From Actinomycetota bacterium (GTDB taxonomy: Bacteria; Actinomycetota; Aquicultoria; CAJVYJ01; JAUVQD01): a stretch of DNA of 37,062 nucleotides. Below, in pieces: positions 16,101 through 20,754 of the stretch (within the stretch, counting starts at the first letter, position 1; each line of letters starts with the position of its first letter). The stretch is taken from positions 1-37,062 of the forward strand of contig JAUXSL010000079.1 in NCBI GenBank assembly GCA_030679975.1, given 5' to 3'. The notes beneath the pieces were generated by a model that saw only the letters and a list, made by a program, of their open reading frames with translations, was not told the origin of the DNA and did not search any database. The translations under genes were made by a program, and so were the position numbers.

Positions 16101-16994
16101 CTACTCAGCTATCAATGTCTTCGCGGTATTCATATGTATATCGATCACATCGGCCGTGCGCTTGGCGTAGCCGCCGGCCAAAACCGCGAAGACCGGGATG
16201 CCGCGTTTTCCGGCTTCACCGATGACGATCTTGTCTCGCTGAAGCAGACCCTCTTTGGTTATCCCTAAATTCCCCAGTTGGTCGTCTTCATATGGGTCGG
16301 CGCCGGCAACATAGCAGACCAATTCGGGCCGGTGGTTGTCGTATATCTTAGGGACTTCACGACTCAAATGGTCTAAGTAAAGTTCATCGCCGGCCGGGTC
16401 GGGCAGGCCGATATCAAAATCGCTTTTTTGCTTTATCGGATAGAGATGCTCCTGGTGGATGGAGAAGGTGAAAACATCCGGGTCGCGGGCGAAACAGACG
16501 GCGGTGCCGTTGCCCTGATGCAGGTCGCAATCGATGACGGCGAACCTCTTGGCCGCGCCCCTCTCTTGTAGGCGGCGGATGGCAATGGCGATATCGTTCA
16601 AATAACAGAAGCCCTCGGCGTGGTCCGGGAAGGCGTGGTGCCAGCCGCCCCCGATGTTCAGCGCCCGCCCCCGCTCCAGCGCCAGTCGGCCGGCCAGAAT
16701 CGTCCCGCCGGTCGTCAACAAAAAGAAATCGCGGATGGCCTCGTTGATCGGTATCTCCGAGGTCATAATGGCTTCGGTATATTCGGAATTCATGAAGTCT
16801 TTGACATAATCCGGTAGGTGGACTAAGGCCAGGTCATCGGGCGTGGCCGGCTCCGGCTCGACGACATCCACCTGTGTCAGTAACCCCTCGGCTTGCAGCC
16901 GGGCGTCGAGCAGCCAATACTTGTCGCAAGGGAAGACATGCGGACCGAACGAGACTTTTAATTTTTCCGAATAAACGACAGCCGGTTTAGTCAT
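16101..16994 (-). CDS. Histone-deacetylase-superfamily amidohydrolase (AcuC-like)
   Basis: This 297-aa zinc hydrolase of the arginase/deacetylase fold has the family signature: paired catalytic histidines in GGGWHHAFPDHAEGFCYLND, zinc ligands in VIDCDLHQGNGTA, a third zinc Asp in AGADPYEDD, and the late Gly-Gly-Tyr in VLAGGYAKR. Bacterial members deacetylate proteins (AcuC with acetyl-CoA synthetase), polyamines or small molecules. No acs or acuA homologue is present here, so the substrate is open. The ATG at 16994 follows AAGGT. It is divergent from trkA and is the first gene of the leftward run that ends with tsaD. Confidence 0.92.
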   Translation of the reverse strand: MTKPAVVYSEKLKVSFGPHVFPCDKYWLLDARLQAEGLLTQVDVVEPEPATPDDLALVHLPDYVKDFMNSEYTEAIMTSEIPINEAIRDFFLLTTGGTILAGRLALERGRALNIGGGWHHAFPDHAEGFCYLNDIAIAIRRLQERGAAKRFAVIDCDLHQGNGTAVCFARDPDVFTFSIHQEHLYPIKQKSDFDIGLPDPAGDELYLDHLSREVPKIYDNHRPELVCYVAGADPYEDDQLGNLGITKEGLLQRDKIVIGEAGKRGIPVFAVLAGGYAKRTADVIDIHMNTAKTLIAE

Positions 16995-17162: not shown

Positions 17163-17819
17163 ATGCACGTGATAGTCGTTGGTTGCGGACGGGTCGGTTC
17201 TCAGCTGGCGACTTTTCTGTCTGAAGAGGGCCACGATGTGGCCATCATCGACAAGACCGAGGATTCATTCCGCCGTCTCGGCTCCACTTTTAACGGCCTC
17301 ACTGTCGAGGGGCTCGGTTTTGACCAGGATATTTTGAAGGAAGCCGGCATAGAAAAGTGCAATGTCTTTGCCGCCGTCACCGACTTGGACAACACCAATA
17401 TGATGGCGGTCGAGGTCGCGACCAAACTATTTTATGTCCCCCGGGCCATCGCCCGTCTTTACAATCCTGAGCGCGCGGTCACATATGACCGGCTCAATAT
17501 CGAATATGTCTGCGGTACCACGATGCTGGCGGAGAAATTGGTCCAGGCGGTAACGGCGCCGGATGTCGATGTCGTTTCGGCGGCCGGCAACCTTTATATT
17601 GTGCGGGTGACGGCAAGCGATAAGCTGGCCGGTAGAACAGTTGGCGAAGTCGACAAAGAAGGCGGATTCAGAATCATCACCATCATCCGCCGGTTGCGAA
17701 ATATCTTTTGCGAGACCGATACCAAAATCAACCGGAACGATCATCTCGTTATTATCACCAAGAAAGACCTAATACCTCAGATAGAGCGCCTGGCCAGGGC
17801 TGAGGAGGCGACGGAATGA
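17163..17819 (+). CDS. trkA: Trk potassium-uptake regulatory protein TrkA (first copy)
   Basis: The product is 218 aa. The N-terminal Rossmann RCK_N domain begins MHVIVVGCGRVGSQLA, with the NAD-binding GxGxxG-like loop, and an acidic end of beta-2 (IIDKTEDS). The C-terminal RCK_C/TrkA_C domain lies at about residues 135-210. It should form the cytoplasmic gating ring for the TrkH channel, sensing NAD(H) or ATP/ADP. I chose the ATG at 17163 because GGAG lies 8 nt upstream and the protein starts directly at the Rossmann strand. Its stop overlaps the second trkA (ATGA). Confidence 0.93.
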   Translation: MHVIVVGCGRVGSQLATFLSEEGHDVAIIDKTEDSFRRLGSTFNGLTVEGLGFDQDILKEAGIEKCNVFAAVTDLDNTNMMAVEVATKLFYVPRAIARLYNPERAVTYDRLNIEYVCGTTMLAEKLVQAVTAPDVDVVSAAGNLYIVRVTASDKLAGRTVGEVDKEGGFRIITIIRRLRNIFCETDTKINRNDHLVIITKKDLIPQIERLARAEEATE

Positions 17820-18478
17820 GGATTGTCGTCAACGGCGGCGGAAAAGTCGGCTCATTCTTAGCCGGCGCCATGGTAAAAAACAATCATCAAGTGACGCTAA
17901 TAGAGCGGCGCGCGGACATTTCCGAGAAAGTCGCACTGGAAGTTCCCGGGGCCTTGATAATCCAAGGGGACGGTTGCGATGTCCGTTACCAGGAAGACGC
18001 CGGAGTACCCGATGCCCAAGTTTTTGTCTCGGTCACCGGCGACGACGATGATAACCTGGTTGCTTGCCAAATCGCCCAAGGCGTCTTTTCCGTCCCCCGG
18101 GTGATCGCCCGCGTCAATAACCCCAAGAATGAGGAGATATTTACCGCTCTCGGCATTGAGGCTGTCAGCTCGACCACGATAATCAGCCGCTTGATCGAAG
18201 AGGAAATATCCATCGGCGATATTGTTACCATACAGACTTTGAAAAAAGGAAAATTGGCCTTGGTCGAGGTTGCCTTGCCGATAACCGACGGAGTCAGCGC
18301 CGGTTCGCGGATTAAAGATCTTGATTTGCCGGACGATTGCGTACTGGTGGCGATCATCAGAAATGACGACGTCATGATCCCCAAAGGGGAGACCGTTTTG
18401 CAACCGGGGGATTCCGTTATTGCCCTGACCAGCGTGGCCAGAGAAAAAGCGCTGAAGCAAAGGTTGATCGGCAGGTGA
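17816..18478 (+). CDS. trkA: Trk potassium-uptake regulatory protein TrkA (second copy)
   Basis: The 220-aa product has an RCK_N domain (MRIVVNGGGKVGSFLAGAM) and an RCK_C domain (about 135-215), organised like the upstream copy. E. coli TrkA carries two such units in one chain, so here the two halves are separate genes and a mixed ring is possible. It starts with ATGA overlapping the first trkA and ends with GTGA overlapping the small membrane ORF. Confidence 0.93.
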   Translation: MRIVVNGGGKVGSFLAGAMVKNNHQVTLIERRADISEKVALEVPGALIIQGDGCDVRYQEDAGVPDAQVFVSVTGDDDDNLVACQIAQGVFSVPRVIARVNNPKNEEIFTALGIEAVSSTTIISRLIEEEISIGDIVTIQTLKKGKLALVEVALPITDGVSAGSRIKDLDLPDDCVLVAIIRNDDVMIPKGETVLQPGDSVIALTSVAREKALKQRLIGR

Positions 18479-18609
18479 AGGAACGGCGCCCGGAGAAAGC
18501 CCCCTATTTGGGTTATCTGGCCGGAATCGCCACCGAGGTTGCCCTGACTTTGGTCATATTTGGTGTCGCCTTTCTTATTATTTTTGTTCTGGAGCGGCTG
18601 GCCAAGTGA
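18475..18609 (+). CDS. 44-aa single-pass membrane protein inside the trk operon
   Basis: A short frame between trkA and trkH. Its GTG at 18475 overlaps the trkA stop as GTGA, the same coupling used by the neighbouring genes, and its stop is 22 bp before the trkH ATG. The product begins MKERRPEKAPYLGYLAG, continues with one long hydrophobic helix (about residues 17-39, including LTLVIFGVAFLIIFVL) and ends ERLAK. It has a basic cytosolic head and a single transmembrane span. Without it there would be an odd 153-bp gap in an otherwise overlapping operon. It is comparable in size with small accessory subunits such as KdpF, or with short AtpZ-like proteins, but I recognise no family. Confidence 0.7.
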   Translation: MKERRPEKAPYLGYLAGIATEVALTLVIFGVAFLIIFVLERLAK

Positions 18610-18631: not shown

Positions 18632-20134
18632 ATGATCCGCAGGCCAAAACTCCACGATTGGCAGATAGTCGGCTTATATACCGGCAAGATAATCGTCGGC
18701 ATCGGGCTGTTAATGCTCGTACCTCTAGCCGTCGGTCTTCTGGCGCTCGAATGGAGCGCGGTCGTTGATTTTATCATCGGCATTCTCGTGGCGATGAGCG
18801 TCGGTTACGGCCTTCAAATGGTCTGCGAGACCAAGCATGAGATGAACTGGATGCACGGCATGGTCATCGCCGCCTTTTCCTGGCTTCTGGCTATGGGGGT
18901 CGGGGCGGTGCCGCACTATTTAAGCGGCCAGTTCGGCTCATTCTTGGACGCCTGCTTCGACTTGATGAGCGGTTACACGACCACCGGACTTTATCTACTC
19001 CAAGACCTTGACCATACGTCCAATGCTCTCAATATGTGGCGGCACCTGCTTACTTACGCCGGTGGCCAAGGCATCGTCGTCATCGCCCTGACCTTCCTGA
19101 TACGCGGCACTTCCGGCGCTTTTATGATGTATGTCGGCGAGGGCAAGGATGAGAAGCTCTTGCCCAATGTCGTTCAGACGGCCAGGGCTATATGGCTGGT
19201 AAGCTTGACTTATCTCGTCATTGGCACGGTCACTATCGGGGGAGCCAATTGGCTTGAAGGCATGAACCCCGTCCGGGCGTTTCTACACGGCGTCTGGGTT
19301 TTTATGGGGGCGTGGAGCACCGGCGGGTTCGCGCCTCAATCTTATAATATCGGCTACTATCACAGCTTGGCGGTTGAAGTGCTGACGATGATCATGTTTA
19401 TCATCGGCTCTTTTAATTTCGCGCTTCACTGGTCTGTCTGGACAGGCAATCGCCGGGAGATATACCGGAATATCGAAATCGTTTCGTTTATGGTCACTAT
19501 ATTTCTAACCGTCAGCCTCGGCACATACGCTTTAATGCAGGTGAACGCCCTACACGGCGTGGTGCCGTTTTTCCGAAAGGCTTTTTATCAGATTGCTTCC
19601 GGCCACACGACCACGGGTTTCATGACGATCTACAGCCGGCAATTCGTGCGCCAATGGGGCGTACTGGCCATGATAGCGACAACCATAGCGATGGCTATCG
19701 GCGGCAGCGCCGCATCGACGGCGGGCGGCTTTAAAGGCATGCGTATGGGGATTATCGCTAAGAGTTTTTTAGCCGATATCCGCCGGCTGATGCTGCCGGA
19801 ATCAAGTGTCATCGTAAAAAAGATACACCATGTCAAGGATACGGTCCTGAGCGACGATCAAGTCCGCGCGGCTATGGCCATCGTCCTGGCCTACATCTTT
19901 ATCTACCTGACGGGTGCGGTCTTGGGTGCTCTCTATCGCTATCCGTTTGTCGAGGCTCTGTTTGAAAGTGTCTCCGCCGGCAGCAACTCCGGCTTGTCGG
20001 TCGGCATTACGGCCCCGTCAATGCCGACAGCCTTAAAGGTTTATTATATTTTTGCTGAATGGGCCGGACGCCTGGAGTTTATGGCTGTCTTCGCCCTGAC
20101 GGGATTTATTATTAGGGTGGTGAAGGGGAAGTGA
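18632..20134 (+). CDS. trkH: Trk-type potassium channel/transporter subunit TrkH
   Basis: The 500-aa polytopic membrane protein has four pore-loop repeats of the TrkH/TrkG/KtrB superfamily, each with a filter-like segment: SGYTTTGLYL, GAWSTGGFAPQ, SGHTTTGFM and SAGSNSGLSVG. Long hydrophobic helices surround them, and the basic helix that interrupts repeat IV lies around the RRLMLPESS region. It takes up K+ under control of the TrkA rings encoded upstream. The open frame extends to 18560, but the ATG at 18632 (MIRRPKLHDWQIVG) behind GGGAAG is the sensible start. Its stop overlaps the next gene as GTGA. Confidence 0.95.
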   Translation: MIRRPKLHDWQIVGLYTGKIIVGIGLLMLVPLAVGLLALEWSAVVDFIIGILVAMSVGYGLQMVCETKHEMNWMHGMVIAAFSWLLAMGVGAVPHYLSGQFGSFLDACFDLMSGYTTTGLYLLQDLDHTSNALNMWRHLLTYAGGQGIVVIALTFLIRGTSGAFMMYVGEGKDEKLLPNVVQTARAIWLVSLTYLVIGTVTIGGANWLEGMNPVRAFLHGVWVFMGAWSTGGFAPQSYNIGYYHSLAVEVLTMIMFIIGSFNFALHWSVWTGNRREIYRNIEIVSFMVTIFLTVSLGTYALMQVNALHGVVPFFRKAFYQIASGHTTTGFMTIYSRQFVRQWGVLAMIATTIAMAIGGSAASTAGGFKGMRMGIIAKSFLADIRRLMLPESSVIVKKIHHVKDTVLSDDQVRAAMAIVLAYIFIYLTGAVLGALYRYPFVEALFESVSAGSNSGLSVGITAPSMPTALKVYYIFAEWAGRLEFMAVFALTGFIIRVVKGK

Positions 20135-20754
20135 ATGGCCCGGGGGGAATGAGGAGTGAGGAGTCAGGAGTGAGGCGGGCCGGTGGATTGTCATTCCCGC
20201 GGAAGCGGGAATCCATTGCGCTCACATGTGCTGCGGGCGCGATGCTTTTGCTGTCTGTATTCGCGCCGGCTGTGGCTGCAGCCGGGGCTCCACTTGTCGA
20301 CAGTGTCACTCTCATCGAGCATCCCGACCGCTATGACGGTAAGCAGGTTGTCTTCAGAGGCGAGGCCATCGGCGATGTGATGGAAAGGTCTGACGGGGCC
20401 TGGATAAATATTAACGATGACGCTTACAGCCGCCAGGGCCGCAAGCGCCGGCTGGCGGGCTATAACAGCGGGCAGAGCGTGCTGGTCTCCGATAAGAAAG
20501 CGGCCCGGGCCGTCAAGCGCCTCGGTGACTATAACAACCGGGGCGACATCGTGGAGGTCACAGGGATATTTCAGAAAGCCGACCCGGACCACGGCGGGGA
20601 CATGATGATAGCGGCGGATAGCCTAAGAATTGTTAAGCCCGGATTTGCTATTCCCCATCCAATATCGACCCGTAAGATATCTTTGGCGATAACTTGGTTG
20701 GCGATCAGCGGTGTGATGTTGGCTTTGTGGCGATGGCGAACGCTAAAGCACTAA
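20131..20754 (+). CDS. Membrane-anchored OB-fold protein with a repeat-derived N-terminus
   Basis: The product is 207 aa. A hydrophobic export signal (about residues 33-51) ends AAAGAPL. An OB-fold-like domain follows at about 55-165, with strands such as KQVVFRGEAIGDV, DIVEVTGIF and MMIAADSLRIV. A C-terminal transmembrane helix lies at about 183-200, followed by RWRTLKH. This is like single-domain tRNA-anti/OB proteins placed outside the membrane; the ligand is unknown. GTG at 20131 overlaps the trkH stop. The first 30 codons are unusual: they contain tandem GGAGTGAGG-like repeats and the dispersed repeat at 20189-20214, translated as SFPRKRES. The original 5' end was therefore probably replaced, and the start is uncertain. 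It ends 4 bp into the convergent rpsA. Confidence 0.75.
   Translation: MNGPGGMRSEESGVRRAGGLSFPRKRESIALTCAAGAMLLLSVFAPAVAAAGAPLVDSVTLIEHPDRYDGKQVVFRGEAIGDVMERSDGAWININDDAYSRQGRKRRLAGYNSGQSVLVSDKKAARAVKRLGDYNNRGDIVEVTGIFQKADPDHGGDMMIAADSLRIVKPGFAIPHPISTRKISLAITWLAISGVMLALWRWRTLKH
20189..20214 (+). repeat. Dispersed GNRA-hairpin repeat, copy 5, inside a coding region
   Basis: TGTCATTCCCGC, loop GGAA, GCGGGAATCC. It lies in the 5' part of the OB-fold gene and is read in frame as SFPRKRES, the same reading frame as the copy in uvrA. It is preceded by short GGAGTGAGG/GGAGTCAGG tandem repeats at about 20149-20174. Confidence 0.85.

Follow-up and report, generated by a model that had tools for sequence, protein, structure and literature searches.

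TrkH and TrkA form the textbook two-component K+ channel of bacteria, and the models of its gating derive from a small number of proteins of proteobacteria and Bacillus; a relative of TrkH/KtrB within the same superfamily is KdpA. The solved complex from Vibrio parahaemolyticus consists of TrkH and a two-domain TrkA only: ADP-bound TrkA keeps the channel shut by touching TrkH at its cytoplasmic parts, and opening involves a shift of an intramembrane loop below the filter (PMC6987127). Small single-pass proteins that bind, tune or protect a large membrane protein are known from other systems, e.g., AcrZ, CydX and MgtU/MgtS (PMC10710835), and KdpF is the proposed stabiliser of KdpFABC (PMC3618439, PMC6255902). 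Here we analyse a trk operon in a stretch of 37,062 nucleotides (the window; contig JAUXSL010000079.1 of assembly GCA_030679975.1, a 1.76-Mb draft genome of an Actinomycetota bacterium that is 95.8% complete). The operon has the order trkA1, trkA2, a frame of 44 codons, trkH and a gene for a protein with a predicted oligonucleotide/oligosaccharide-binding (OB) fold. As judged from sequence comparisons, a small peptide of this kind goes with one large branch of bacterial TrkH that spans several phyla, and the 44-codon frame is probably translated into an accessory subunit, single-pass and dedicated to TrkH.

The initial annotation had placed a short frame between trkA and trkH, and its coordinates proved exact. 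The frame begins with GTG, overlaps the trkA2 stop (18476–18478) as GTGA and encodes the 44-aa protein VKERRPEKAPYLGYLAGIATEVALTLVIFGVAFLIIFVLERLAK; its stop is separated from trkH by a spacer of 22 nt, and in many relatives both genes overlap by 4 nt. Since the window contains 145 open reading frames of 40–70 aa, both strands counted, the open frame by itself is no evidence, and conservation is the real test. Among these 145 the small gene alone has a 19-residue Kyte-Doolittle mean above 2.5, and AlphaFold2 predicts a single continuous helix comprising residues 10–43 of 44 with a mean predicted local distance difference test (pLDDT) score of 90.8, in agreement with the one strong transmembrane helix already suggested.

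Frame, helix and motif are preserved in relatives at family, class and phylum level and beyond. Stops, frameshifts or a loss of the helix in relatives were looked for and not seen, and the bias towards synonymous substitutions that the initial annotation had proposed to look for in a conserved short frame was found: the ratio of non-synonymous to synonymous changes per site (pN/pS) in the coding frame is 0.16–0.49 in seven of eight groups of relatives, the shifted frames giving mostly values of ~0.7 to 2 and containing stops. The eighth group (f5) consists of one pair with seven changes, none of them synonymous, and is uninformative. A short frame with a GTGA overlap upstream and a 22-nt gap to, or a 4-nt overlap with, trkH could also be a leader or coupling frame, whose translation serves to deliver ribosomes to trkH and whose peptide is inert. 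The invariant glycine, the near-invariant glutamate, the helix common to several phyla and the low pN/pS indicate, however, that selection acts on the protein, and length and spacing vary freely; this explanation is largely refuted and must be considered very improbable. The conservation pattern thus marks the 44-codon frame as a genuine, widely conserved protein gene.

For a description of the family, TrkH loci of relatives were collected and the gap 5' of trkH was read for short frames. In nearly all of them a short frame is present with a basic head, as the initial annotation had described it, typically followed by Y-x-x-G-x-x-x-E and one hydrophobic helix. In alignments of 27–33 diverse members the Gly of G-x-x-x-E is invariant and the Glu is conserved to at least 90%, which did not change after members from Bacillota and Nitrospirota were added. 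The 54 motif-bearing members (that of the window and 53 others) all have one helix and G-x-x-x-E and are 33–62 aa long (median 45). In 46 of the 54 the N-tail is more positively charged than the C-tail (mean +2.9 versus +0.9), which by the positive-inside rule suggests a topology with the N-terminus in and the C-terminus out. Relative to the Glu (position 0), conservation peaks at −7 (Tyr), −4 (Gly), 0, +4, +7, +11, +14 and +17, a spacing near that of one helix face (p = 0.02 in a shuffle test with the motif residues included).

Homologues of the peptide (33–62 aa) are found directly 5' of trkH in Actinomycetota, Caldisericota, Nitrospirota, Bacillota and one metagenome-assembled genome (MAG) assigned to Spirochaetes. 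A six-frame search with the peptide profile in 297 Actinomycetota genomes gave 36 places in 35 genomes with E ≤ 1.3e-5 and values as low as 6e-20; comparison with the TrkH places of the same genomes showed that all 36 lie immediately 5' of a trkH. In G009 (C11, L014) and G020 (C19, L016) a degraded or partial trkH copy separates the peptide gene from the intact trkH; in G168 the match lies close to the end of a contig, with the N-terminus of TrkH after it (L077), and in G032 and G033 TrkH is cut off by the contig end. Eleven weaker places had E-values from 5.8e-4 to 9e-3: three (in G122, G178 and G249) adjoin trkH and bear the motif, and eight, located in longer frames away from any listed trkH, are chance-level matches. 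In Caldisericota 17 of 54 genomes gave matches and 17 of 19 places adjoin trkH, the remaining two being weak and within long frames, and in the class of Anaerocolumna (Bacillota) matches were obtained in two of 196 genomes, both beside trkH. That the frame is spurious, as the many similar-sized frames of the window would allow, is refuted by such E-values in six-frame genome searches together with all the evidence from conservation and linkage, and its probability is practically nil. With respect to the contig labelled as Spirochaetes MAG (JAPLSM010000019.1, L033), its TrkH locus groups among those of Actinomycetota with 58% identity, which would reflect either a transfer or a binning error.

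The arrangement of genes also bears on the question of which neighbour the peptide belongs to. As a partner of TrkA it could tether or position the ring of RCK (regulator of K+ conductance) domains at the membrane. Three features are consistent with a TrkA partner: the position of the gene, which in most genomes is flanked by trkA2 and trkH, the location of the conserved Glu close to the cytoplasmic side, and the fact that among the TrkH columns that track the Glu (K165, R284, H400-D403 and others) columns 165, 284 and 400–403 are in or beside cytoplasmic loops. It should be noted, however, that the distribution of the motif labels mirrors the TrkH tree, several losses included (the labels on the tree are from an earlier set, four of which differ from the final ones). 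Because the Glu follows clades of this tree, the column signal is confounded by phylogeny and was rejected as independent evidence for a contact. Furthermore, the peptide stays with trkH where trkA is elsewhere. For example, G007 (L094, C4:1800-6600) has the tandem small gene-trkH, small gene-trkH without an intervening trkA, and although the second trkH is frameshifted its peptide is intact; G088 and G266 have their trkA genes beyond both trkH and the gene that follows it, with the peptide gene still immediately 5' of trkH; and in G063, G158 and one locus of G129 the peptide is present and no trkA was found just upstream. These arrangements show at the level of gene order that the small gene tracks trkH, not trkA, and thus that the peptide belongs with TrkH; a role as TrkA partner is quite improbable.

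We infer that the peptide binds to TrkH and affects its gating or stability. The initial annotation had proposed a small subunit that, like KdpF, may stabilise the channel, here Trk. This is the best-supported reading, owing to the essentially complete linkage to trkH, the association with trkH and not trkA where the gene order changes, and the purifying selection; the analogy to KdpF is left without a sequence match. The main rival to a dedicated subunit is an assembly or protection factor that binds TrkH transiently, during insertion or dimerisation or as a shield against FtsH, and that is not part of the working channel. The same linkage and conservation data apply to it, and peptides that protect transporters are known, MgtU with MgtB and MgtS with MgtA (PMC10710835). 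The near one-to-one pairing with trkH and the 4-nt overlaps resemble a fixed stoichiometry, although they are compatible with such a factor, which we regard as rather unlikely.

Three observations weigh against an accessory subunit. The first is that neither the Glu nor the peptide is absolutely required, the Glu having been lost in several TrkH lineages: in a sample of 79 TrkHs from the clade, 55 are accompanied by a motif-bearing peptide, 18 have a one-helix peptide without Glu in the same place (often of the type G-I-G-L-V-A-L) and six have no peptide. The second is that the shuffle test without the two motif residues gives p ~0.11, and the helix-face pattern can therefore be taken as only suggestive. 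The third is that the comparison within the window's own family comprises only three sequences (pN/pS 0.49), with synonymous sites near saturation. A separate TrkH branch (L119, L122-L128 and L137) has peptides that retain position and helix and have G-I-G-L-V-A-L-type sequences without the Glu; here the mode of contact is possibly different.

If the peptide is a subunit of TrkH, its basic N-terminus would stay in the cytoplasm and its helix of ~34 residues would cross the membrane once; the C-terminal end of the peptide is expected on the other side from the N-terminal end of TrkH. The helix face with Tyr at −7, Gly at −4, Glu at 0, a small residue at +4, Leu/Ile at +7, Ala/Gly/Ser at +11 and Ile/Leu at +14 would pack on TrkH, the near-invariant Gly permitting close contact. 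The near-invariant Glu, ~11 residues from the start of the helix and towards the cytoplasm, could engage in a polar contact close to the inner gate or to the loops on which TrkA acts, and its carboxylate would be well placed to stabilise or tune the parts contacted by TrkA and the intramembrane loop. The most likely effect would be a stabilised TrkH and a tuned TrkA-controlled gating, comparable to the proposed stabilisation of KdpABC by KdpF or the tuning of AcrB by AcrZ.

The protein encoded after trkH is likewise conserved across the TrkH loci. Its gene overlaps the trkH stop as GTGA, although translation may in fact begin at ATG 20242. Near its 5' end the full-length frame contains, at 20185–20216 (+), a palindromic element similar to repetitive extragenic palindromes (REP-like), ATTCCCGCGGAAGCGGGAAT, which encodes FPRKRES. 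A profile of the OB protein gave 96 listed places in 79 of the 297 Actinomycetota genomes, all of them no more than 1.2 kb 3' of a listed TrkH. The gene accompanies 95 of the 100 listed TrkHs that are at least 34% identical to that of the window; of the five others, those in G007 and G010 are each the first copy of a tandem pair, those in G033 and G217 are at contig ends, and one is in G125, where the OB gene sits between two TrkHs. Listed TrkHs below 34% identity have no OB gene except for this G125 neighbour, and the gene occurs in each of the 15 genomes that were tested from other groups. The AlphaFold2 model (pLDDT 91.8) has five main strands and a C-terminal helix, and Foldseek matches it with OB-folds of aminoacyl-tRNA synthetases, RPA, CST and SSB (E 1e-5 to 2e-4; TM-scores by query length 0.37–0.53). 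The window protein has no match in Pfam, and as tested no Pfam or NCBIfam family above cut-off and no PDB sequence match was obtained; two members touch the OB-fold model PF01336 (E 6e-5). The fold alone should not be taken as a ground for inferring nucleic-acid binding. From its hydrophobic N-terminus the protein is probably exported and membrane-anchored; it is likely a second extra Trk subunit, which would be a further, outward-facing part of the same channel. Taken as a whole, this TrkH branch (Actinomycetota, Caldisericota and relatives elsewhere) could be an undescribed multi-subunit complex with two TrkAs below, the peptide with its in-membrane Glu involved in gating and the outward OB protein capping or sensing the channel mouth, a picture that we put forward tentatively, its chances being less than even.

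The features of the operon are compiled in Table 1. The family assignments of trkA1, trkA2 and trkH, which are based on profile matches, are firm: TrkA_N and TrkA_C are above the curated cut-off in both TrkAs, whose genes overlap as ATGA (17816–17819), and the window TrkH matches PDB 4J9U (E 2e-33). The divergent neighbour of the operon (16101–16994, minus strand) encodes a protein of the histone-deacetylase family (PF00850, 197 bits).

Table 1. Coordinates of the trk operon in the window
Feature	Position	Strand	Characteristics
trkA1	17163..17819	+	single RCK unit, 218 aa; TrkA_N PF02254 87.2 bits, TrkA_C PF02080 42.1 bits
trkA2	17816..18478	+	single RCK unit, 220 aa; TrkA_N PF02254 83.2 bits, TrkA_C PF02080 47.7 bits
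AAGG, possible Shine-Dalgarno sequence of the small gene	18460..18463	+	11 nt before GTG; weak, by eye
Gene for 44-aa single-pass membrane protein	18475..18609	+	GTG start, GTGA overlap with trkA2; G17-x-x-x-E21; helix 10–43
trkH	18632..20134	+	500 aa; PF02386 131.9 bits (curated cut-off 27)
OB-fold gene after trkH	20131..20754	+	signal/anchor segment, five-stranded OB-fold domain, C-terminal membrane helix

A large, deep-branching TrkH subfamily thus has two further conserved partners that are unnamed in Pfam, NCBIfam and PDB. If both are subunits, this branch lies outside the present gating models, and attempts to express its TrkHs heterologously may fail when the two are absent. With a single residue (Glu21) and a short gene, the peptide offers a handle for direct tests.

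For the peptide no Pfam or NCBIfam family was found above cut-off. An identity with KdpF was rejected (none of 30 members matched KdpF in either Pfam or NCBIfam at E ≤ 1), as were NCBIfam NF010229, a 53-aa hypothetical protein (16.6 bits against a cut-off of 52, in only one of the 30), and a PDB homologue, the only matches being chance ones to PsbH (E 0.14 or worse). The open-access papers searched contain no description of extra TrkH subunits, subscription papers being outside that search, and plasmid records have only distant TrkHs, with ~30% identity or less among the best. KdpF (~30 aa) resembles the peptide in having one helix and a gene just before that of the K+-translocating subunit. 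The peptide, however, is longer, has a basic head and the G-x-x-x-E motif, matches no KdpF model and has trkA, trkA, trkH and the OB-fold gene as neighbours, whereas KdpF goes with kdpA, kdpB and kdpC of a P-type ATPase; the analogy is thus only one of position and function. AcrZ, CydX and MgtU/MgtS are alike as one-helix proteins, but have an unrelated partner and share no family model with the peptide. The Vibrio parahaemolyticus complex (PDB 4J9U, 6V4J-L) is composed of proteins of the same families as the window TrkH and TrkAs, whereas the clade of the window has two single-unit TrkAs, a one-helix peptide and an OB-fold membrane protein. One-helix accessory subunits are of a known kind; the novelty lies in a variant TrkH branch that has two partners of this sort.
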